Below, piece after piece: positions 15,541-43,663 of a DNA stretch of 44,840 bases (position 1 is the first letter of the stretch; every line of letters begins with the position of its first letter). This stretch comes from Thioalkalivibrio sp. (GTDB lineage: Bacteria; Pseudomonadota; Gammaproteobacteria; Ectothiorhodospirales; Ectothiorhodospiraceae), in NCBI GenBank assembly GCA_011389655.1, contig JAABTX010000013.1, positions 1-44,840 of the forward strand, written 5' to 3'. A program made the translations under genes and the position numbers. Below the pieces are notes generated by a model. The model was not told where the DNA came from. It saw only the letters and a program-made list of their open reading frames with translations, and did no database searches.

Positions 15541-16464
15541 CTACGCGCCCGTGGGGCGCAGGCACGCCTCCGGAATCGGTCCCGGCGGCAGTCGCCCCGG
15601 GCTCCAGTGGCGCCGTGCGTGCTCCAGCAGGTCGTCGACCGCTCCCGGTCCAGCCGCGGCGAAACCGGGATCGACGCCCGGGGTGCCGATCGCGGCCAGG
15701 ATCGGCGCGAGCAGGGCGGCGGGCCGCTGGCGCGGCGCCGGCGCGGCGCCCGAAGACTTGGCCAGCTTCCGGCCGCTGTCCGCGATCACCACCGGGTGGT
15801 GCAGATAACGGGGCTGCGGACGCCCGAGCCCCCGGTACAGCTGCAGCTGCCGGGGCACCGAGCCCAGCAGGTCGATGCCGCGGACCACGTCGGTGACCCC
15901 GAGCGCGATGTCGTCGACGACGGTCGCGAGCTGGTAGGCGAACACGCCGTCGGCCCGGCGGATCACGAAATCGCCGCCCAGCCGGTGCAGGTCGAAGCCG
16001 AGCGGGCCCAGGCTCCGGTCCGTGATCGTCCAGTGGCGCTGCTCGGCCCGCAGGCGAACCGAGCGGCCCTCCCGGCCGCGCGGCAGGCCCTCCCGACAGG
16101 TACCCGGGTAGATCGGCCCGTCGAGGCCCACGAGCCCGGCGGCGGCGACCTCCTTCCGGGAACAGGCGCAGGCGAAGACCCGGCCAGCGGCCTCCAGGCG
16201 CGCGAGGGCCTCCCGGTAGGCCGGTTCGCGCTCGCTCTGAAACACCACGGCGCCATCCCATCCGAGCCCGCAGGCGTCGAGGGTACGCAGGATCTCGTCC
16301 GCGGCGCCGGGCACGGTGCGCGGCCGGTCGCTATCGTCGATGCGCAGGTGCCACCGGCCCTGCCGGCTGCGGGCGTCCAGCCAGGAGATCACCGCGGCGG
16401 TCAGCGAACCCGCGTGCAGCGGGCCCGACGGAGTCGGGGCGAAGCGGCCTGTGCAGACGGTCAA
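15541..16464 (-). CDS. gluQRS: Glutamyl-queuosine tRNA(Asp) synthetase
   Basis: 307 residues. A truncated glutamyl-tRNA-synthetase paralogue that attaches glutamate to the queuosine at the wobble base of tRNA-Asp. Seen: the class I HIGH-like signature GRFAPTPSGPLHAGS near the N-terminus, zinc-ligand cysteines CACSRKE and YPGTC (about 98-120), the KLAKSSG (KMSKS-like) loop near 235, and no anticodon-binding domain. The only fitting start is TTG 16464, just ahead of the HxGS signature. It lies 57 bases downstream of dksA, the conserved dksA-gluQRS order of Gammaproteobacteria. Confidence 0.95.
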   Translation of the reverse strand: MTVCTGRFAPTPSGPLHAGSLTAAVISWLDARSRQGRWHLRIDDSDRPRTVPGAADEILRTLDACGLGWDGAVVFQSEREPAYREALARLEAAGRVFACACSRKEVAAAGLVGLDGPIYPGTCREGLPRGREGRSVRLRAEQRHWTITDRSLGPLGFDLHRLGGDFVIRRADGVFAYQLATVVDDIALGVTDVVRGIDLLGSVPRQLQLYRGLGRPQPRYLHHPVVIADSGRKLAKSSGAAPAPRQRPAALLAPILAAIGTPGVDPGFAAAGPGAVDDLLEHARRHWSPGRLPPGPIPEACLRPTGA

Positions 16465-16521
16465 GAGGCCGGGAACAGGACGTGAATGCCGGTTTGTCCG
16501 GTGTCCGGGACGGCGGGCCGT

Positions 16522-16974
16522 TCAGGCCATCTGCCTTTCCTTGATCTCCGCCAGCGTCTTGCAGTCGATGCACAGCGTGGCGGTCGGGCGCGCCTCCAGC
16601 CTGCGGATGCCGATCTCCACCCCGCAGGCCTCGCAGTAGCCGTAGTTGCCCAGATCGATGTTGCGCAGGGACTCGTCGATCTTCTTGGAGAGCTTGCGCT
16701 CACGGTCGCGCGCCCGGAGCTCCAGGCCGAATTCCTCTTCCTGTGTCGCGCGGTCGGCGGGATCCGCGAAGTTCGCGGCCTCCCGCTTCATGTGACCCAC
16801 GGTCCGGTTCACCTCCTCCAGCAATTCCTGTTTCCAGGCGAGCAGGAGTTGCCGGAAATGTGCCAGCTGCTCGTCGCTCATGTACTCTTCGCCGGCCTCC
16901 GGCTGGTAGGCGGCAATGCCGCTGGCCACCATGTGGTTGGACGAGGGCTTGGTCTTCTTCGGGTCTGCGGCCAT
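16522..16974 (-). CDS. dksA: RNA polymerase-binding transcription factor DksA
   Basis: 150 residues, the family length. DksA enters the secondary channel of RNA polymerase and, with ppGpp, resets promoter choice. The coiled-coil tip holds the D-x2-D-x-A motif (FADPADRATQ, Asp71 and Asp74), and the four-Cys zinc finger is intact (Cys114, Cys117, Cys135, Cys138: CEACG and CIDCK). ATG 16974 has GGAGA about ten bases upstream. Transcribed ahead of gluQRS. Confidence 0.97.
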   Translation of the reverse strand: MAADPKKTKPSSNHMVASGIAAYQPEAGEEYMSDEQLAHFRQLLLAWKQELLEEVNRTVGHMKREAANFADPADRATQEEEFGLELRARDRERKLSKKIDESLRNIDLGNYGYCEACGVEIGIRRLEARPTATLCIDCKTLAEIKERQMA

Positions 16975-36349: not shown

Positions 36350-36940
36350 TCAGGTCAGCAGGTCGTCGCGAAAGCGCGCGGAAAGCGGCTCCCGCGGGTC
36401 GAGCCAGATGCCGAAGTAGGCCCGGGCGAAGTCGAGTCCGGGCACCCGGATCAGCTCCTCGCCGTTCTTCAGCAGCCGCGTTCCGTTTCCGGGGTCGTAC
36501 TCCAGCGCGTACCGGTCCCCGGCCTCCACGTCGCGATACGCTGCGTTGAACGTCTCCAGCCGGTCCGACAGCGCCGCCAGCACCTCGGGCGGCTGCTGCT
36601 TCTCCAGCAGGGCGGTTCCGCTCCGGCGAAAGTCATCGCCGCTGATCGACATCAGGTAATGCAATTCCAGGCGCTTGGGAACGTCCGCATCCAGCACATC
36701 ATCGGGCGCAATGTCCGCCGGCGCGTAGAGGGCACCGGTATAGACCCGGAACACGACCGCGTAGCGGAACAGGCCACCGCCGCGCACGGGCACGTCGGTC
36801 CCTCCGATGGCCACCGAGGGGGCAAAATCGACCCCCGAGATGCGGACCGACCCGGTGGCCGGGAGACCGAGCAGCAGGGCGAGAAGGAGCACGGTGGTGG
36901 CCGACGCGGCGCGCCGGACCGGCAGGGGGTTGCGGATCAT
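36350..36940 (-). CDS. Chalcone-isomerase-like exported protein
   Basis: 196 residues with a signal peptide (about 10-29). RYAVVFRVYTGALYAP is the hallmark of the bacterial chalcone-isomerase-like family (Chalcone_3), which shares a fatty-acid-binding fold with plant CHI but has no shown isomerase activity. A periplasmic lipid-binding role would fit its place as last gene of the cfa operon. ATG 36940 overlaps the stop of the MFS gene (ATGA). Confidence 0.82.
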   Translation of the reverse strand: MIRNPLPVRRAASATTVLLLALLLGLPATGSVRISGVDFAPSVAIGGTDVPVRGGGLFRYAVVFRVYTGALYAPADIAPDDVLDADVPKRLELHYLMSISGDDFRRSGTALLEKQQPPEVLAALSDRLETFNAAYRDVEAGDRYALEYDPGNGTRLLKNGEELIRVPGLDFARAYFGIWLDPREPLSARFRDDLLT

Positions 36941-38283
36941 GGGTTGCCTCCTGTGGGAGCGGTGGACATCTCGAGGGACGCCTGCTGCGCCTCGATGCGC
37001 TGGCGCAGCGCGCGCTGTGCATCCTCGTCGATCGGGAAGTGCCAGACCAGCGGCATCGCCGCCAGCTTGAACAGCACGGGCAGCCCCGCGTAGGCGAGGG
37101 CGAGCACCAGCAGGGCGCCTCCGCTGTTCCCGCCCTCGGTGGAGAATCCCGCGAGTGCGAGCAGCGGAAAGCTGATGCCGACCGCGAGCGCCAGCGCCAG
37201 CTTCGTGGCCATGCCCCACAGGCCGAAGAACAGCCCGGCGCGCTCGCCGCCGCCCTCGGCGGTGTCCTGGTCGATCACGTCGGCCTGCATCGCCGCCGGC
37301 AGGGCCAGGTCCACGCCCAGGCTCAGGCCCGTGAGCACGGTGATCAGGTAGAACCAGGCGACGTCCCCGGTGCCGAGCAGGGGCACCCAGATGAAGAAGG
37401 CGCTCGCCAGCAGCATGGAGATCGTCCAGACCCGGTGCTTGCCCAGCCGCCGGGCCAGCAACAGCCAGGCGGGCAGGGCGGCGATGCCGACGCCGAAGTA
37501 GACGAGCAGCAGCGGCCCCGCGTGCTCCGGGGCCTCGAGCACGTGGGTGATGAACAGCAGGAACAGGGTGGCGGGGATCGCGTTCGCGGTGCCGTTCAGC
37601 ACCCAGGCCAGCACCAGCCGACGGAACGGCCGGTTGTCCCGGAGCAGCAGCAGCCCATGCCGCCAGGCCACGGGCGGGAGGCGGCCGGGGCGCTCGGGAA
37701 CCGCCAGGATCAGCAGCAGCACCGCCAGCGGCAGCAGCCACCAGAACAGCGTGGCGAGGGCGGCGAGACTGGCGCCGGCGTCGTTCTCGAGTCCGAGCAC
37801 CGCGGGCATCGCGGCCGCGACCACCGTGCCGGTCACCACGAAGCCCTCGCGCCAGGCGCTGATCCGCGAACGCTCGTGGTAATGGGGCGAGAGCTCCGCA
37901 CCCCAGGCGAAGTAGGGCAGCGACACCAGTGTCCATCCCAGGTACACCAGCGCGCTGAAGAACAGCAGGTGGAGCGCGCCCACACCCGCGCCCGGCCGGA
38001 ACAGCATCTCGACGGCCACCAGCAGGATCGGCGTGCCGGCGATGATCAGCGCGCGCCGGCGGAACGGCCCCCGGATGCGGTCGGAGAGGTGGCCGACGAT
38101 AGGGTCGGTGATCACGTCGAACAGGCGCGCGGCCAGCAGGATGAAGCCGACGGCGGCCAGCCCGATGCCGGTCTGCTCCGCGTAGAAGGTCGGCAGGAAC
38201 ACGAACAGCGGCAGGCCGAGGATGGCCATCGGCAGCCCCGGCAGGCCGTAGGCGGCGAGCCGGGATCGGGCGATGCGGGTCAT
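36937..38283 (-). CDS. MFS transporter, GPH/MelB-like
   Basis: 448 residues, 12 membrane segments. The N-terminus LPMAILGLPLFVFLPTFYAE and the motif DVITDPIVGHLSDRIRGPFRRRR-like between segments 2 and 3 are typical of the glycoside-pentoside-hexuronide cation-symporter family. In clusters with cfa and DUF1365 this class is regularly present, and a lipid or lipid-precursor substrate rather than a sugar is likely (inference). It begins one base after the cfa stop codon and overlaps the chalcone-isomerase-like gene by four bases. Confidence 0.88.
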   Translation of the reverse strand: MTRIARSRLAAYGLPGLPMAILGLPLFVFLPTFYAEQTGIGLAAVGFILLAARLFDVITDPIVGHLSDRIRGPFRRRALIIAGTPILLVAVEMLFRPGAGVGALHLLFFSALVYLGWTLVSLPYFAWGAELSPHYHERSRISAWREGFVVTGTVVAAAMPAVLGLENDAGASLAALATLFWWLLPLAVLLLILAVPERPGRLPPVAWRHGLLLLRDNRPFRRLVLAWVLNGTANAIPATLFLLFITHVLEAPEHAGPLLLVYFGVGIAALPAWLLLARRLGKHRVWTISMLLASAFFIWVPLLGTGDVAWFYLITVLTGLSLGVDLALPAAMQADVIDQDTAEGGGERAGLFFGLWGMATKLALALAVGISFPLLALAGFSTEGGNSGGALLVLALAYAGLPVLFKLAAMPLVWHFPIDEDAQRALRQRIEAQQASLEMSTAPTGGNP

Positions 38284-38284
38284 G

Positions 38285-39517
38285 TCAGGCCGGGCGCTCG
38301 AGGATCGTCTGCATCAGGTCCACGCGCCCGTGGCGGAAGCCGACCTCGCAGTAGGCGAGGTAGTAGCGCCACATGCGCAGGAAGGCGTCACCGTAACCCA
38401 GCGCCTGGATGATGTCGGCGGAGCGGCGGACCTCCTCGAACCAGTGGCGCAGCGTGCGGGCGTAGTCCATCCCGAAGAAGTCCTGCTCCCGGCGCTCGAG
38501 ACCGGCGGCGGCGGCCAGCGTGTTGAATCGCGGCACCGGGGGCAGCATGCCGCCGGGAAAGATGTACAGCTGGATGAAGTCCGCGTTCTCCCGGTAGCGC
38601 TCGAAGGCGGCCTCGTCGATGGTGATCACCTGCAGCGCCGCGCGTCCCCCGGGACGCAGGCAGTTGCGGACCTTCTCGAAATAGGTCGGCCACCACTCCT
38701 CGCCGACCGCCTCGAACATCTCGATCGACACCACGTGATCGAAGCGCTCGTCGAGGTCCCGGTAATCCTGCAGCCGGAGTTCCACCCGGTCGGACAGCCC
38801 GGCCCGCGCCACGCGTTCGCGGGCATACTCGAGCTGTTCCTGCGACAGCGTGATGCCGGTCACCCGGTACCCTTGCCGGGCCGCCGCCGCGGCGAAGCCG
38901 CCCCAGCCGCAGCCGATCTCGAGGATGTGGGCCCCGGGTTCCGCGTCCAGCCGTTCCAGCAGGCGCTGGTACTTGCGCTGCTGCGCGGTCTCCAGCGCCT
39001 CGTCGCCCTTGCTGAACAGGGCCGAGGAATAGGACATCGTGGTGTCCAGCCACTGCCGGTAGAACTCGTTGCCGAGGTCGTAGTGGAAGCGGATGTTCGC
39101 GCGGCTGCCGCGCCGGCTGTTGCGACGCATGCGGTGCCGCAGGCGGTCCAGCCGGCGCTGCCAGGCCGGACGCCGGGCGAGATCGCGCAGCGACCCTTCG
39201 TTGTCCACCGAGAACTGGAGCAGGGCCTGCAGGTCCGGCGTGTTCCAGTCGCCGGCAATGTAGCCCTCCGCGAAGCCGATCTCCCCCCGGCGCAGCAGGC
39301 GCAGGAGCGCGCGCCACGGTCGGCGGAGGTGCCAGACCGCCTCGCTGCCCGGCAGGCGACCGCCGATCACGATGCGGTTGCCGGCGGCGTCGATCAGGGT
39401 GAGCTGTCCGTGCTCGACGGCATTCAGCGCGCGCGCCAGCCAGCGCAGCGGCAACGCGGGGCGGGACGATCCGGCGGTGCTGTCGCCGGGGGTGAAGGAA
39501 CGGGGTTGGGCCGACAT
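38285..39517 (-). CDS. cfa: Cyclopropane-fatty-acyl-phospholipid synthase family methyltransferase
   Basis: 410 residues. SAM-dependent enzyme acting on unsaturated acyl chains of membrane phospholipids. Seen: N-terminal lipid-binding domain, NIRFHYDLGNEFYRQWLDTTMSYSSALF, SAM-binding motif LEIGCGWGGFA (about 198-207), FDHVVSIEMFEAVG, FIQLYIFPGGMLP and the C-terminal WRYYLAYCEVGFRHGR. In operons with a FAD oxidoreductase and DUF1365 this homologue may instead be a methylase of branched or furan fatty acid synthesis, so classic cyclopropanation is not certain. ATG 39517 shares one base with the DUF1365 stop (TGATG). Confidence 0.93.
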   Translation of the reverse strand: MSAQPRSFTPGDSTAGSSRPALPLRWLARALNAVEHGQLTLIDAAGNRIVIGGRLPGSEAVWHLRRPWRALLRLLRRGEIGFAEGYIAGDWNTPDLQALLQFSVDNEGSLRDLARRPAWQRRLDRLRHRMRRNSRRGSRANIRFHYDLGNEFYRQWLDTTMSYSSALFSKGDEALETAQQRKYQRLLERLDAEPGAHILEIGCGWGGFAAAAARQGYRVTGITLSQEQLEYARERVARAGLSDRVELRLQDYRDLDERFDHVVSIEMFEAVGEEWWPTYFEKVRNCLRPGGRAALQVITIDEAAFERYRENADFIQLYIFPGGMLPPVPRFNTLAAAAGLERREQDFFGMDYARTLRHWFEEVRRSADIIQALGYGDAFLRMWRYYLAYCEVGFRHGRVDLMQTILERPA

Positions 39518-40278
39518 CAGCTGACCTCCTGTACGGGGGGTTCGGGTTTGCGGTGGAACCGGCCACCGCGCAGCCAGATCTTCAGGGCCTGCCAGTGGAT
39601 CAGGACCATCACCTTGACGGTGGCCCAGGGCATGGTGAGCAGGATACGAAGCAGGTTGCGGTCCGTGAAGTCGAGCGCGCGGCCGGACTGGCTCGCCACC
39701 AGCATCAGCTCGTCGTCCTCGAACTCCCGGATCGCGATGCGCAGGCGCGGGCCCGGCTCGTCCAGGCGGAAGACGTAGCGCGGTCGCATGTCGATGAACG
39801 GGGACACGTGGAAGTGCTTCGGTTTCTCTCCCTGCACCGGCCACGGGTTCTCTCCGGTGCCCGCCGGGAGCAGGTAGTGGTGATGCTCGCCAAAGGTGTT
39901 GCGCACCTCCAGCAGCACGGCGAGGGTCCGGCCATCGCGGTGCTCGCAGTACCAGATGCTGAGGGGGTTGAAGGCGTAGCCGAGGATCCGCGGCATCGCC
40001 AGCAGGCGGATGCGCCCGCCCTCGAGATCGATCCCGTGCTCCGCCAGCCGGGCCTCGACCCAGGGGCGCCAGGGCGAACCGTCGCGGCGGCCGTGGTCCC
40101 GGGTGTGCAGGCTGAACAGGTTGAAGCGGTTCACCGAGAACCAGCGCGCGCCGCGCGCCACCGTATCGAGCCGATCGATGTCGAACAGCGCGCTGTAGAT
40201 CCGGTACCGGAACCGGTAGGCCACCGGGAAGAAGCGCTGGTGCATCACCCGGCAGGAGTAGAGCAGGGCATCGCGCAT
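39517..40278 (-). CDS. DUF1365 family protein
   Basis: 253 residues. DUF1365 pattern: HQRFFPVAYRFRYRIYSALFDID near the N-terminus and MPRILGYAFNPLSIWYC, GEHHHYLLP and KHFHVSPFIDM in the middle. The His-rich blocks could bind metal. The family is almost always between a FAD-dependent oxidoreductase and a cfa-like gene, as here, and is thought to act on the same lipid; no reaction is established by what I see. It is coupled at both ends by TGATG overlaps. Confidence 0.9.
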   Translation of the reverse strand: MRDALLYSCRVMHQRFFPVAYRFRYRIYSALFDIDRLDTVARGARWFSVNRFNLFSLHTRDHGRRDGSPWRPWVEARLAEHGIDLEGGRIRLLAMPRILGYAFNPLSIWYCEHRDGRTLAVLLEVRNTFGEHHHYLLPAGTGENPWPVQGEKPKHFHVSPFIDMRPRYVFRLDEPGPRLRIAIREFEDDELMLVASQSGRALDFTDRNLLRILLTMPWATVKVMVLIHWQALKIWLRGGRFHRKPEPPVQEVS

Positions 40279-41603
40279 CAGGCGGCCGCCGCGGTTTCCT
40301 GCACCGGCATCGGGGTGGCGGGAGTCTCCGCGGTGTCTTCCCACGGCGGCGCACAGCCGAGCCGGCGGGCCACCTCGACCGCGGAGCGCATGCCGTCCTC
40401 GTGGAAGCCGAAGCCGGTCCAGGCGCCGGCGATGTAGACGCCGTTCTCTCCCTGGATGCCGGGCAGCCGGGCCTGGGCCTCCACGGCGGCGGCGTCCATC
40501 ACCGGATGGCGCCAGCGGTATTCGCCGAGCACCGTGGTCGGATGGGGCTCGCGCCACGGGTTGAGGCTGATCATGTAGTCCTGGCGGCGGTCCAGGCGGT
40601 GCAGGCTGTTCATGTAGTAGGAGACGGAGACGCGCTGGTCGTCGAGGCCCCGGCGCTGCGTCAGGTAGTTCCAGGAGGCCCACACGCGCCGGGACGCGGG
40701 CATCAGCCGCGCGTCCGTGTGCAGCAGCGCGCGGTTGTCCTGGAAGCGGCAGGCGCCCAGGACCGCCGACTGCTCCCGCGTGGGCGTGGCCAGCATCCGG
40801 AGCGCGTCGTCCGCGTGGCAGGCGAAGACCACTGCATCGAAGGTCTCGGACCCGGTCGCGGTGGCCACCTGCCAGGAGCCTCCGGCGCGGGTGACCTGCT
40901 CGACCCCGCCGTGGCGGACGGTGCCGGTCGGCAACCGCTCGGCCAGGCGCTGCACGTACACGCGGCTGCCCCCGACCACCGTGCGCCACTGCGGCCGCCC
41001 CTCGAGGTCGAGCAGGCCGTGATTGCGGAAGAACTCGAGGAACCCGCGCACCGGGAACAGGCGCATCGTCGCCGACGGACAGGACCAGATCGCGGCGGCC
41101 ATCGGCAGCAGGTAGTCCTCGCTGAAGCCGTGTCCGAAGCGGTGCAGGTCCAGGAATTCTCCCAGTGTGATGTCGGCGAGCGCGTCCTCCGCGAGCAGGC
41201 GCTTGCCCAGCCGGTTGAACCGGAGGATGTCGGCGGTCATGCGCAGGAAGCGCGGCCGCAGCAGGTTGCGCCGCTGGGCGAACAGGGTGTTGATGTCGGT
41301 GCCCGCGTATTCGATGCCGCCGGGCTGCAGCGAGTAGGAGAACGACATGTCGGTGGGCTGCGTCGCCACCCCGAGTTCCGCGAACAGGCGGGTCAGCAGC
41401 GGGTAGTTGCGTTCGTTGTACACAACGAACCCGGTGTCGATGCTGACCGCACCCTGAGGATCGGGAATCTCGACCGTATGGGCGTGCCCGCCCAGAACCG
41501 TTTCCTTCTCGAACAGTCTCACCTCGTGGCGTCGCTGCAGGAGCCACGCCGCCGCGAGCCCCGAGACCCCTCCGCCGATGACCGCGATCCGCTGCCGTTC
41601 CAT
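40278..41603 (-). CDS. FAD-dependent amine-oxidase-like oxidoreductase
   Basis: 441 residues. N-terminal dinucleotide-binding motif IAVIGGGVSGLAAAWLL, the FAD-contacting ETVLGGHAHT, and the C-terminal GVYIAGAWTGFGFHEDGM of flavin amine-oxidase/desaturase proteins. First gene of the five-gene lipid operon. In Rhodobacter, FAD proteins in cfa-type stress operons take part in desaturating methylated acyl chains to furan fatty acids; that is a reasonable but unproven analogy. ATG 41603 has GGAG about nine bases upstream. The promoter lies at 41637-41666 under the 11-bp repeats. Confidence 0.9.
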   Translation of the reverse strand: MERQRIAVIGGGVSGLAAAWLLQRRHEVRLFEKETVLGGHAHTVEIPDPQGAVSIDTGFVVYNERNYPLLTRLFAELGVATQPTDMSFSYSLQPGGIEYAGTDINTLFAQRRNLLRPRFLRMTADILRFNRLGKRLLAEDALADITLGEFLDLHRFGHGFSEDYLLPMAAAIWSCPSATMRLFPVRGFLEFFRNHGLLDLEGRPQWRTVVGGSRVYVQRLAERLPTGTVRHGGVEQVTRAGGSWQVATATGSETFDAVVFACHADDALRMLATPTREQSAVLGACRFQDNRALLHTDARLMPASRRVWASWNYLTQRRGLDDQRVSVSYYMNSLHRLDRRQDYMISLNPWREPHPTTVLGEYRWRHPVMDAAAVEAQARLPGIQGENGVYIAGAWTGFGFHEDGMRSAVEVARRLGCAPPWEDTAETPATPMPVQETAAAA

Positions 41604-41628: not shown

Positions 41629-41657
41629 TGGAAATATTTATACACGAATTGTACAAT
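41629..41657 (+). promoter_or_regulatory. Promoter of the glutathione-peroxidase-like operon
   Basis: TGGAAA (four of six), a 17-base spacer and TACAAT (five of six) fit a sigma-70 promoter with a start near 41664 and a leader of about 23 bases carrying the GAGGAGG ribosome site. Confidence 0.5.
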
Positions 41658-41666
41658 CCTTGTAAA
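41637..41666 (-). promoter_or_regulatory. Promoter of the FAD-DUF1365-cfa operon
   Basis: Minus-strand TTTACA (41666-41661) and TATAAA (41642-41637), each five of six to consensus, are separated by 18 bases. The predicted start is near 41630, 27 bases before the ATG. Confidence 0.6.
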
Positions 41667-41670
41667 CGTT
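41638..41670 (+). promoter_or_regulatory. Three 11-bp direct repeats, CarH/LitR-like operator
   Basis: TTATACA (41638), TTGTACA (41649) and TTGTAAA (41660) share the pattern TTrTAmA and recur at exactly 11 bases. They span both divergent promoters. CarH of Thermus binds as a tetramer to three near-identical 11-bp direct repeats at a promoter and lets go in light; the geometry here is the same. No MerR-family regulator gene lies in this window, so the partner is inferred. Confidence 0.55.
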
Positions 41671-41686: not shown

Positions 41687-42238
41687 ATGGCTCCAGTCGC
41701 CGCAGTCGTCCTGGCCCTCGCCGCATTGCTTCCGGGCGTGGCGCAGTCCGCCAGCTGTCCCGAGAGTCTCGATTTCGAACTGCGGCCGCTGACCGCCGAG
41801 GAGCCCGTGCGCCTGTGCGACGCGCACCGCGATCAGGTACTGCTCATGGTGAACACCGCGAGCAAGTGCGGCTTTGTCGGCCAGTTCGAGGGGCTGGAGG
41901 CACTGGACGCGGAATTCAGGGATCGCGGCTTCCGGGTGGTCGGCTTCCCGTCGGGCGACTTCCTCAATCAGGAGTACGAGGACGAGGAACGGATCGACAA
42001 CTTCTGCCGGTCCACCTACGGCGTGCAGTTTCCGATGTACGAGAAGGTGAATGCCTCCCGCGGCAACGCGGCTCCGGGCACCCTGTACCACTATCTCGGC
42101 AGCGCCGCCGGCGAGTTCCCGCGGTGGAATTTCCACAAGTACCTGATCGGACGCGACGGCGAGGTGCTCGCGTCCTTCGGCACCCGCGTGCGGCCCGACG
42201 ACCCCAGCATCCGGGCGGCCATCCGGTCCGCACTCTGA
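41687..42238 (+). CDS. Exported glutathione-peroxidase-like protein
   Basis: 183 residues with an N-terminal signal segment (about 3-22), so likely periplasmic. Thioredoxin-fold peroxidase: peroxidatic Cys61 in VNTASKCGFVGQ and the WNF motif (Trp147, Asn148). The tetrad Gln, normally in FPCNQF, is replaced: FPSGDF has Asp91 at that place, and its Cys is Ser89. Activity toward peroxides may therefore differ from BtuE-type enzymes. A further Cys107 could act as resolving Cys. ATG 41687 has GAGGAGG upstream. It is the first gene of an operon with DUF3429 and folE and shares its promoter region with the cfa operon. Confidence 0.88.
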   Translation: MAPVAAVVLALAALLPGVAQSASCPESLDFELRPLTAEEPVRLCDAHRDQVLLMVNTASKCGFVGQFEGLEALDAEFRDRGFRVVGFPSGDFLNQEYEDEERIDNFCRSTYGVQFPMYEKVNASRGNAAPGTLYHYLGSAAGEFPRWNFHKYLIGRDGEVLASFGTRVRPDDPSIRAAIRSAL

Positions 42239-43002
42239 TGCCGGTCTGGCCCGAGGAGGTGACCCGCGCGCTGGAACGTTCCGAGGTGGTTGCGATCACC
42301 TCGGGGCTGACGGACCTGCGCGACGCGGAGGAGCTGCTCGAGCGGCGTCTGCCGGGGCGCTGGACCCGCATCGAGTGGGGCATGGGTTCGGCCGAGAACC
42401 GGGCGCGCTTTCGCGCGGTGCAGCAGGCCTCCGGCCTGTCCATGCTGCCGCTGTTCATCGCCCGCGACGGGTTGGTCGGGGGGCTTCCCGAGTTGCGCCG
42501 CCACCTGGGCGCCCCGGATGTCTCCGCACAAGGACCCGCCCCGGCCGCCGGCACCGGGGACCAGGCCTTCCTGCTCCGGGTCCTCGGCTACGGCGGGCTG
42601 ATCCCCTTCGTCTTCTTCGGGATCGGCGCATGGTTTGGTGGCGGCGACTGGCAGGCCTTCGCCCTGCACGCCCTCGCGGCCTACGCCGCGGTGATCCTGT
42701 CGTTTCTGGGCGCGATCCACTGGGGGCTGTCCCTCGCCGATCCCCCTCACCGGGTCTTCGGGCTCGCCGGGCCGGCCTGGGCGGTGATGCCGTCGCTCGC
42801 CGCGTGGGCGGCCCTGCTGCTGCCGAAGACCGCGGGGCTGATCGTCCTGCTGCTGCTGTTTCCACTGGTGCTGTGGGTGGATCGCGCAAGCCTGCGCGCG
42901 ACACCGTTGCCGCCCGGTTACCTTACGCTCCGCGGACATTTGACGCTGGGCGCAGTGGTTTTCCTACTATCTGGCACCCTCGCCAGCCTGACCATCCAGT
43001 GA
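42238..43002 (+). CDS. Glutaredoxin-like/DUF3429 membrane protein
   Basis: 254 residues in two parts. The N-terminal ~85 residues look like a glutaredoxin/thioredoxin-like domain lacking the CxxC (PVWPEEVTRALERSEVVAIT; MLPLFIARDGLVGGLPELRRHLG ends the fold). The C-terminal part (about 110-254) is DUF3429 with five hydrophobic segments, including FLGAIHWGLSLADPPH, the DUF3429 signature. ATG 42238 shares one base with the gpx stop (TGATG). Likely an inner-membrane protein with the thioredoxin-like part in the cytoplasm or periplasm; function unknown. Confidence 0.78.
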   Translation: MPVWPEEVTRALERSEVVAITSGLTDLRDAEELLERRLPGRWTRIEWGMGSAENRARFRAVQQASGLSMLPLFIARDGLVGGLPELRRHLGAPDVSAQGPAPAAGTGDQAFLLRVLGYGGLIPFVFFGIGAWFGGGDWQAFALHALAAYAAVILSFLGAIHWGLSLADPPHRVFGLAGPAWAVMPSLAAWAALLLPKTAGLIVLLLLFPLVLWVDRASLRATPLPPGYLTLRGHLTLGAVVFLLSGTLASLTIQ

Positions 43003-43039: not shown

Positions 43040-43663
43040 ATGACCGCCGTGAGCCGACCGATCAAGATCAACCAGGAACAGGCCGATGAGGCCCATGCAC
43101 CCGTCGCCAGTGTGGAGACGATGTCCTCCCACTACCGTGAAGTCCTCAGCGGACTCGGCGAGGACGTGGGCCGCGAGGGGCTGGTCGACACCCCGACCCG
43201 GGCGGTGAAGGCCCTGAAGTACCTCACCCGGGGCTATGCGATGGATCTCGACGAGATCGTGAACAACGCGCTGTTCAGCTCCGACAACGACGAGATGGTG
43301 CTGCTGAAGGACGTCGAGCTTTACTCGCTGTGCGAGCACCATGTATTGCCCGTGATCGGCAAGGCGCACGTCGCCTACCTGCCCAACGGCCGCGTGATCG
43401 GTCTTTCCAAGATCGCCCGCATCGTGGACATGTTCGCCGCCCGCCTGCAGATCCAGGAGAACATGACCCGCCAGATCGCCGAGGCCCTGATGGACGTCAC
43501 CGGTGCGCGCGGCGTCGGGGTGGTGGTCGAGGCGCGGCACATGTGCATGACCATGCGCGGCATCGAGAAGCAGCACAGCTCGATGACCACGTCGGTGATG
43601 CTGGGGGCCTTCCGCGAGGACCCGCGCACCCGCGAGGAATTCCTCGACCTGATCCGGCGCTGA
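43040..43663 (+). CDS. folE: GTP cyclohydrolase I
   Basis: 207 residues. Converts GTP to dihydroneopterin triphosphate, first step of folate (and pterin) synthesis. Zinc ligands: Cys98 and His101 in [10 protein letters not shown], and the second Cys (about 169) in [29 protein letters not shown] is family-typical. ATG 43040 has CGAGGAA nine bases upstream. It follows the DUF3429 gene by 37 bases, so it can share the promoter at 41629, and thus the repeat operator. Tetrahydrofolate pterins are photolyase antennae, which is worth noting beside a possible light operator. Confidence 0.97.

Follow-up and report, generated by a model that had tools for sequence, protein, structure and literature searches.

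The described systems closest to the one considered here are those of the class II LitR proteins of Pseudomonas (PMC9758184). In P. mendocina (PmlR2 with PmSB-LOV) and in P. putida (PplR1-3 with PpSB-LOV) a MerR-type LitR without B12 motifs is accompanied by a short LOV protein, and in P. mendocina the illuminated LOV protein binds PmlR2 and stops its DNA binding. The targets of these systems include genes for a UfaM-like protein, an FAD oxidoreductase, an SDR, a photolyase and folE, and their operator is built of T(G/A)TACA boxes, two of them in the arrangement T(G/A)TACA-N12-TGTA(C/T)A. In class I, represented by CarH of Thermus thermophilus and Bacillus megaterium, the motifs Wx9EH (in a four-helix bundle) and D/ExHxxG (in a Rossmann module) define the B12 pocket, and three or four TnnACA repeats, spaced by 11 bp and lying over promoter elements, form the operator, with pseudorepeats being accepted in published examples (PMC9304148). 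In work on a blue-light MerR regulator of V. cholerae a CFA synthase gene is reported as light-induced (PMC5241685), and the furan-fatty-acid genes of R. sphaeroides, encoding the DUF1365 protein UfaO, the desaturase UfaD and the methylase UfaM, are induced under photo-oxidative conditions through RpoE/ChrR (PMC7380195). In the open-access literature on LitR, CarH, LOV and Thioalkalivibrio we found no paper on such a system in Thioalkalivibrio.

The Thioalkalivibrio genome analysed here shares with the Pseudomonas systems the type of regulator, the short LOV protein, the target genes and the boxes, but its operator has three boxes with N5 between them, 11 bp apart, its litR and lov genes are unlinked, lov lies behind a Tll0287-like gene, and gpx and a DUF3429 gene are part of the putative regulon. 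Its own LitR, moreover, has no match to PF02607, the defining domain of class II, and is placed outside the Pseudomonas clade by a tree with a weak deep fork; since both this match and the N12 operator fail, it is strictly not a class II protein. With CarH it has in common the whole-chain fold (as predicted here) and the 11-bp spacing over likely promoter elements, whereas neither Wx9EH nor D/ExHxxG is present, no carotenoid genes lie at the site and the third repeat is imperfect. Genes of the UfaD/UfaO/UfaM type are found as in R. sphaeroides, but here a putative LitR-type operator would control them, and there is so far no sign of a role for an ECF sigma factor. We put at about 80% the probability that a 28-bp element between two divergent operons is the operator of a B12-free LitR/CarH-family repressor, relieved by the short LOV protein in blue light and controlling both operons; taken by itself, the statement that the site is an operator of a LitR/CarH-family repressor is very probably correct.

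The element, TATACA-N5-TGTACA-N5-TGTAAA (41639..41666, not assigned to either strand), consists of box 1 (TATACA, 41639..41644), box 2 (TGTACA, 41650..41655) and box 3 (TGTAAA, 41661..41666). The earlier note had described the heptamers TTATACA, TTGTACA and TTGTAAA, starting at 41638, 41649 and 41660, as three 11-bp direct repeats, possibly a light operator of the CarH/LitR type. Positions and spacing (exactly 11 bp) are as it stated; the third heptamer fits no direct TnnACA and reads better as an inverted box (TTTACA on the opposite strand). TGTACA is its own reverse complement, and on each strand two of the repeats are good and one is imperfect; we therefore speak of three boxes at 11-bp spacing rather than of three direct repeats, the site by itself being compatible with either order, direct or inverted. 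Measured against the tandem 11-bp TnnACA arrangement of CarH, the spacing is present with two full repeats and one imperfect repeat per strand, and a strict search of the window (the whole stretch of 44,840 bases that was analysed) for three perfect TnnACA at this spacing gave none. The pattern TNTACA-N5-TNTACA-N5-TNTACA, allowed up to three mismatches, matches a single place in the window (one mismatch, on either strand), against a mean of 0.01 matches in 100 dinucleotide shuffles. Within the coding sequence of the oxidase (window 41417-41428) there is an isolated palindrome, GTTGTACACAAC.

On the minus strand the element is followed by genes for an FAD oxidase/desaturase (40278..41603; Amino_oxidase domain and context), a DUF1365 protein (39517..40281; PF07103, 1.4e-83) and a CFA/CMAS methyltransferase (38285..39517; domain search), here called UfaD-like, UfaO-like and UfaM/Cfa-like, the first by analogy to PMC7380195. 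An MFS_2 transporter (36937..38283; ORF and domain search) and a chalcone isomerase-like protein (36350..36937; PF16036, 1.2e-30) probably form the end of this operon, which by domain content and gene order resembles the furan-fatty-acid genes; the Ufa-like names reflect these two features and not a sequence comparison with the Ufa proteins. On the plus strand, domain searches identified a glutathione peroxidase (gpx, 41687..42238), a DUF3429 membrane protein (42238..43002) and GTP cyclohydrolase I (folE, 43040..43663). The DUF3429 match covers only residues 114-245 of its protein, which has an N-terminal extension; by eye, the first 110 residues resemble a glutaredoxin. Among 30 loci, the side to the right of the operator has DUF3429 in 28, GPx in 16 (only 32% identical in one) and, within 1.5 kb, FolE in 17: the divergent gene pair is kept although gpx comes and goes. 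Together with the SDR and photolyase genes described below, the oxidase, DUF1365, CFA-like and folE genes match the light-induced set described for Pseudomonas (PMC9758184); the earlier note had named cfa, DUF1365, oxidoreductase and photolyase genes as being under the control of related LitR proteins. In another genus of the family (G034, L141:1-14001), genes for MFS, CFA, DUF1365 and oxidase, the operator, and genes for GPx, DUF3429, FolE, SDR and LitR lie within about 11 kb.

Conservation of the element was followed in an alignment of 30 regions upstream of the oxidase gene. The block occurs in 29 of them, namely in all 26 same-genus loci with an oxidase gene start and in G031, G034 and G035; the only exception, G033, is also without litR and LOV matches. 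The other four same-genus genomes have a fragment of the oxidase gene only (two) or no orthologue (two). Across the 29 loci 20 of the 28 columns are at least 95% conserved, compared with 1/28 and 0/28 in flanks of equal length, so that the block is a phylogenetic footprint; box 1 is identical in 29/29, box 2 in 28/29 (TTTACA in one) and box 3 in 27/29. The 11-bp periodicity, whose conservation the earlier note had named as a check, is thereby borne out. G036, a genome with litR, carries the site ahead of its oxidase gene, and all four genomes without a litR match (G033, G042, G046, G048) lack it there. G038 has an oxidase gene and a LitR-like match confined to the HTH, yet the site is absent there, as it is from the second oxidase copy of G026.

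With up to two mismatches the pattern is found at three places in the whole 3.46-Mb genome and its reversed control at none. The second place is the start of a gene for a 340-aa MerR protein of the LitR/CarH-like type (litR; G000:C329:1824-2846, minus strand; domain search); behind it, in the same orientation, come an SDR gene and then a photolyase gene that reaches the end of the contig. At the third place the site precedes a Tll0287-like gene, to which the gene of a 171-aa single-domain LOV protein is joined. Both companion sites were located by the operator pattern alone, and their genes are those that one would expect from the work on Pseudomonas. A LitR-type light operator is thus well supported: the promoter of the genome's single litR has a similar site, and the block recurs in all 26 same-genus loci with an oxidase gene start. 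Dispersed repeats around GTAGGAGCGGCTTCCAGCCGCGA flank litR (L002:540-720 and 1850-2120).

Like sites accompany litR and LOV genes in relatives. At litR promoters a site that agrees with the consensus at 12 or more of its 15 bases is present in 29/29 loci, a figure for which threshold and region were fixed after a first pass (21/29 at 13 or more of 15), starts were anchored on the HTH and no shuffles were run, the first-pass shuffle maxima being 8 to 12; G003, the thirtieth locus, was left out for its missing N-terminus. Five first-pass misses with scores of 7-8 (G016, G012, G010, G034, G031) arose because start codons had been set too far upstream. For LOV operons (28 of 30 loci, two being left out for contig edges) the site reaches at least 12/15 in 23, a score attained by none of 20 shuffles each, and five have no site at 12 of 15. 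Strong litR matches exist in 27 of the 30 same-genus genomes, the three others being assemblies of 58-77% completeness, and a short LOV relative exists in all 30 (E <= 1e-72). The 30 genomes contain 158 pattern matches (77 + 81; strands are counted apart, so one place is often counted twice) against 6 for the reversed control, and seven same-family genomes contain 20 against 2; in 21 same-class genomes there is no excess (65 against 85). Pairs of the form TGTACA-N0-28-TGTACA were not above control in the same-genus genomes (104 against 95 reversed; forward strand, manual sums), and among the matches listed for these genomes 38 of 75 forward TGTACA pairs have the N5 spacing (hand count): among TGTACA pairs the spacing alone is special and not their total number.

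The short LOV flavoprotein (171 aa; G000:C216, about 16232-16747, minus strand) is the likely sensor, and it is in front of its operon that the operator occurs for the third time. The protein consists of a LOV core with the adduct cysteine (in DCRFLQ; PAS_9 only) and has no effector domain, and it matches short LOV proteins of the PDB annotated as 'sensory box' at 2.2e-58 to 1e-50, some of which we take to be the P. putida SB-LOVs. The gene is preceded, apparently in one operon, by that of a secreted Tll0287-like (haem-type) protein (L008:902-1459), and it lies on a contig other than that of litR. Among the best 80 of 589 LitR candidate loci, mostly from Pseudomonas and Halomonadaceae, a LOV relative was found within 10 kb in 49, folE in 37, a photolyase in 30 and the oxidase-DUF1365-CFA trio in 17. 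Release of the repressor driven by the LOV protein is likely, by analogy with P. mendocina. Because the partnership is drawn by analogy, a LitR operator might also be relieved by a different signal, such as redox state, singlet oxygen, a CarS-like protein or a chromophore of the repressor itself (reported for class III LitR); class III and IV proteins do have other or unknown inputs (PMC9758184), and the LOV operon also holds the haem-type Tll0287-like gene. We consider this improbable, given that the LOV operon bears the same operator, that short LOV and litR genes co-occur and that the 49 loci with a neighbouring LOV gene come mostly from Pseudomonas, where the partnership is biochemically shown. 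A BLUF partner was discarded, PF04940 having no match in the assembly.

The litR gene is on a contig other than that of the operator and is the only LitR/CarH-like gene among the three MerR_1 genes of the assembly; the other two were set aside as candidate regulators (one, of 118 aa, neighbours an HU/IHF-like frame, the other, of 102 aa, a DnaJ-like frame; identities by eye). Its product contains a MerR-type DNA-binding domain (PF13411, 4.9e-15) and has no Pfam match to B12-binding (PF02310) or B12-binding_2 (PF02607) at E<=1; PF02607 matches 23 of 49 relatives. An AlphaFold2 model of the orthologue L148 (Thioalkalivibrio, 67% identical; pLDDT 86.9) shows a MerR domain, a helical bundle and a Rossmann-like module, and aligns with the cobalamin domain of T. 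thermophilus CarH (TtCarH; Z 18.9, rmsd 2.7, 193 residues) and with the full CarH chain 5c8d (E 1.8e-14). Wx9EH and D/ExHxxG are both absent from the own LitR and from its 10 same-genus homologues in the alignment; among 61 aligned relatives six have both motifs and one more has Wx9EH alone. The fold match and the missing motifs together describe a CarH fold from which the B12 signature is gone, and to judge from sequence and model the repressor seems to have lost B12. In the tree the own LitR clade (100/100) stands outside the Pseudomonas/Halomonas clade (100/98), on a long branch (1.71) and with a deep fork of only 81/57.

The B12-dependent CarH photoreceptor proposed in the earlier note, a repressor that would bind adenosylcobalamin and be freed by its photolysis, is not supported. 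The three boxes at 11 bp are the geometry of CarH operators (PMC9304148) and the predicted fold matches the cobalamin domain, but the regulator has neither B12 motif and no B12 domain match, and the search for a MerR gene with a B12-binding domain found none in the assembly, an outcome that the earlier note had listed as refuting its proposal, the single PF02310 match falling in a 1295-aa frame that we read as methionine synthase. As the assembly is 99.6% complete, an overlooked B12 regulator gene is possible but unlikely, and we regard this explanation as very improbable.

The earlier note had also placed the boxes over both divergent promoters, which is plausible. For the gpx operon a promoter scan reported TGGAAA-N17-TACAAT (41629..41657, plus strand; 9/12 matches, 0.1 expected), with its -10 on box 2; for the oxidase operon TTTACA-N18-TATAAA (41637..41666, minus strand) was recognised by inspection only and is missing from the scan output, as it does not end in T. 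Boxes 1 and 3 overlap likely promoter hexamers: the first four bases of box 1 lie within the supposed oxidase -10, its CA outside, and box 3 is, on the minus strand, the supposed -35 (both by inspection). That the boxes are merely the hexamers of a conserved divergent sigma-70 promoter pair, with box 3 as a -35-like TTTACA, box 1 overlapping TATAAA and box 2 holding the -10-like TACAAT, is highly unlikely, since two dinucleotides beyond the hexamers, the CA in box 1 and the TG in box 2, are conserved as well, the 11-bp array is repeated at the litR and LOV promoters and hardly elsewhere, and it is missing before the oxidase gene in the four genomes without a litR match.

For the LitR operator with a LOV partner we infer binding, repression and a response to light along the following lines. 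In the dark LitR, seated on the three boxes, would mask both hexamers of the oxidase promoter (-35 and -10) and, of the divergent gpx promoter, the -10, so that a single complex could shut both operons. In blue light the LOV protein would form its flavin-cysteine adduct, bind LitR and lift it from the DNA. Release would turn on the furan-fatty-acid-type membrane-lipid operon (UfaD-, UfaO- and UfaM-like proteins, MFS_2, chalcone isomerase-like protein) and, on the other side, glutathione peroxidase, the DUF3429 protein and folE; the litR-SDR-photolyase and Tll0287-like/LOV operons, both with like sites, would follow. Very probably, then, the switch allows blue light to induce genes guarding membranes against photodamage. 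If so, a genus of chemolithotrophic sulfur oxidisers would possess a dedicated blue-light defence regulon of which sensor, repressor, operator and targets can all be named; operator geometry would be separated from the chromophore in the LitR/CarH family, the replacement of B12 by LOV would become testable, and a short, defined operator would be at hand for optogenetics.

Among the best 80 of the 589 LitR candidate loci, two spacings of box pairs stand out, 11 bp with 12 and 18 bp with 11 of the 54 direct pairs; no other spacing is above 4. The 11-bp pairs occur in Thioalkalivibrio, Ectothiorhodospira, Cocleimonas, some Halomonadaceae, Azotobacter and three LitR loci with B12 motifs, the 18-bp pairs in Pseudomonas, Stutzerimonas, Azotobacter and Halomonas. 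This suggests that 11 bp may be the older form of the operator. Tentatively, and with the balance tilting slightly against it, one may propose that the sensor was swapped and the operator kept: a B12-less LitR of CarH fold with a LOV anti-repressor would read a CarH-type 11-bp operator, and the N12 form of Pseudomonas would be derived. The Thioalkalivibrio-type system would then be an intermediate between CarH and the class II LitR of Pseudomonas, and in it a single operator would govern genes of the furan-fatty-acid type together with a peroxidase and folE. Both spacings are found together in single LitR loci of Halomonas (L187, L221) and Azotobacter (L186).

Seven relatives have a further site of three or four boxes, flanked on one side by a PAS-PAS-MCP chemoreceptor gene and on the other by a divergent gene for a lipoprotein-like protein of about 300 aa (L128:2615, L130:2570, L131:2621, L136:2518, L144:2510, L145:2563, L146:2514), and taxis may therefore belong to the regulon there; the L128 copy of the lipoprotein-like gene gave no Pfam match. 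The relatives L129, L134 and L135 also gave weak pattern matches, located close to a CheA-like operon and to a primosomal-helicase-like gene.
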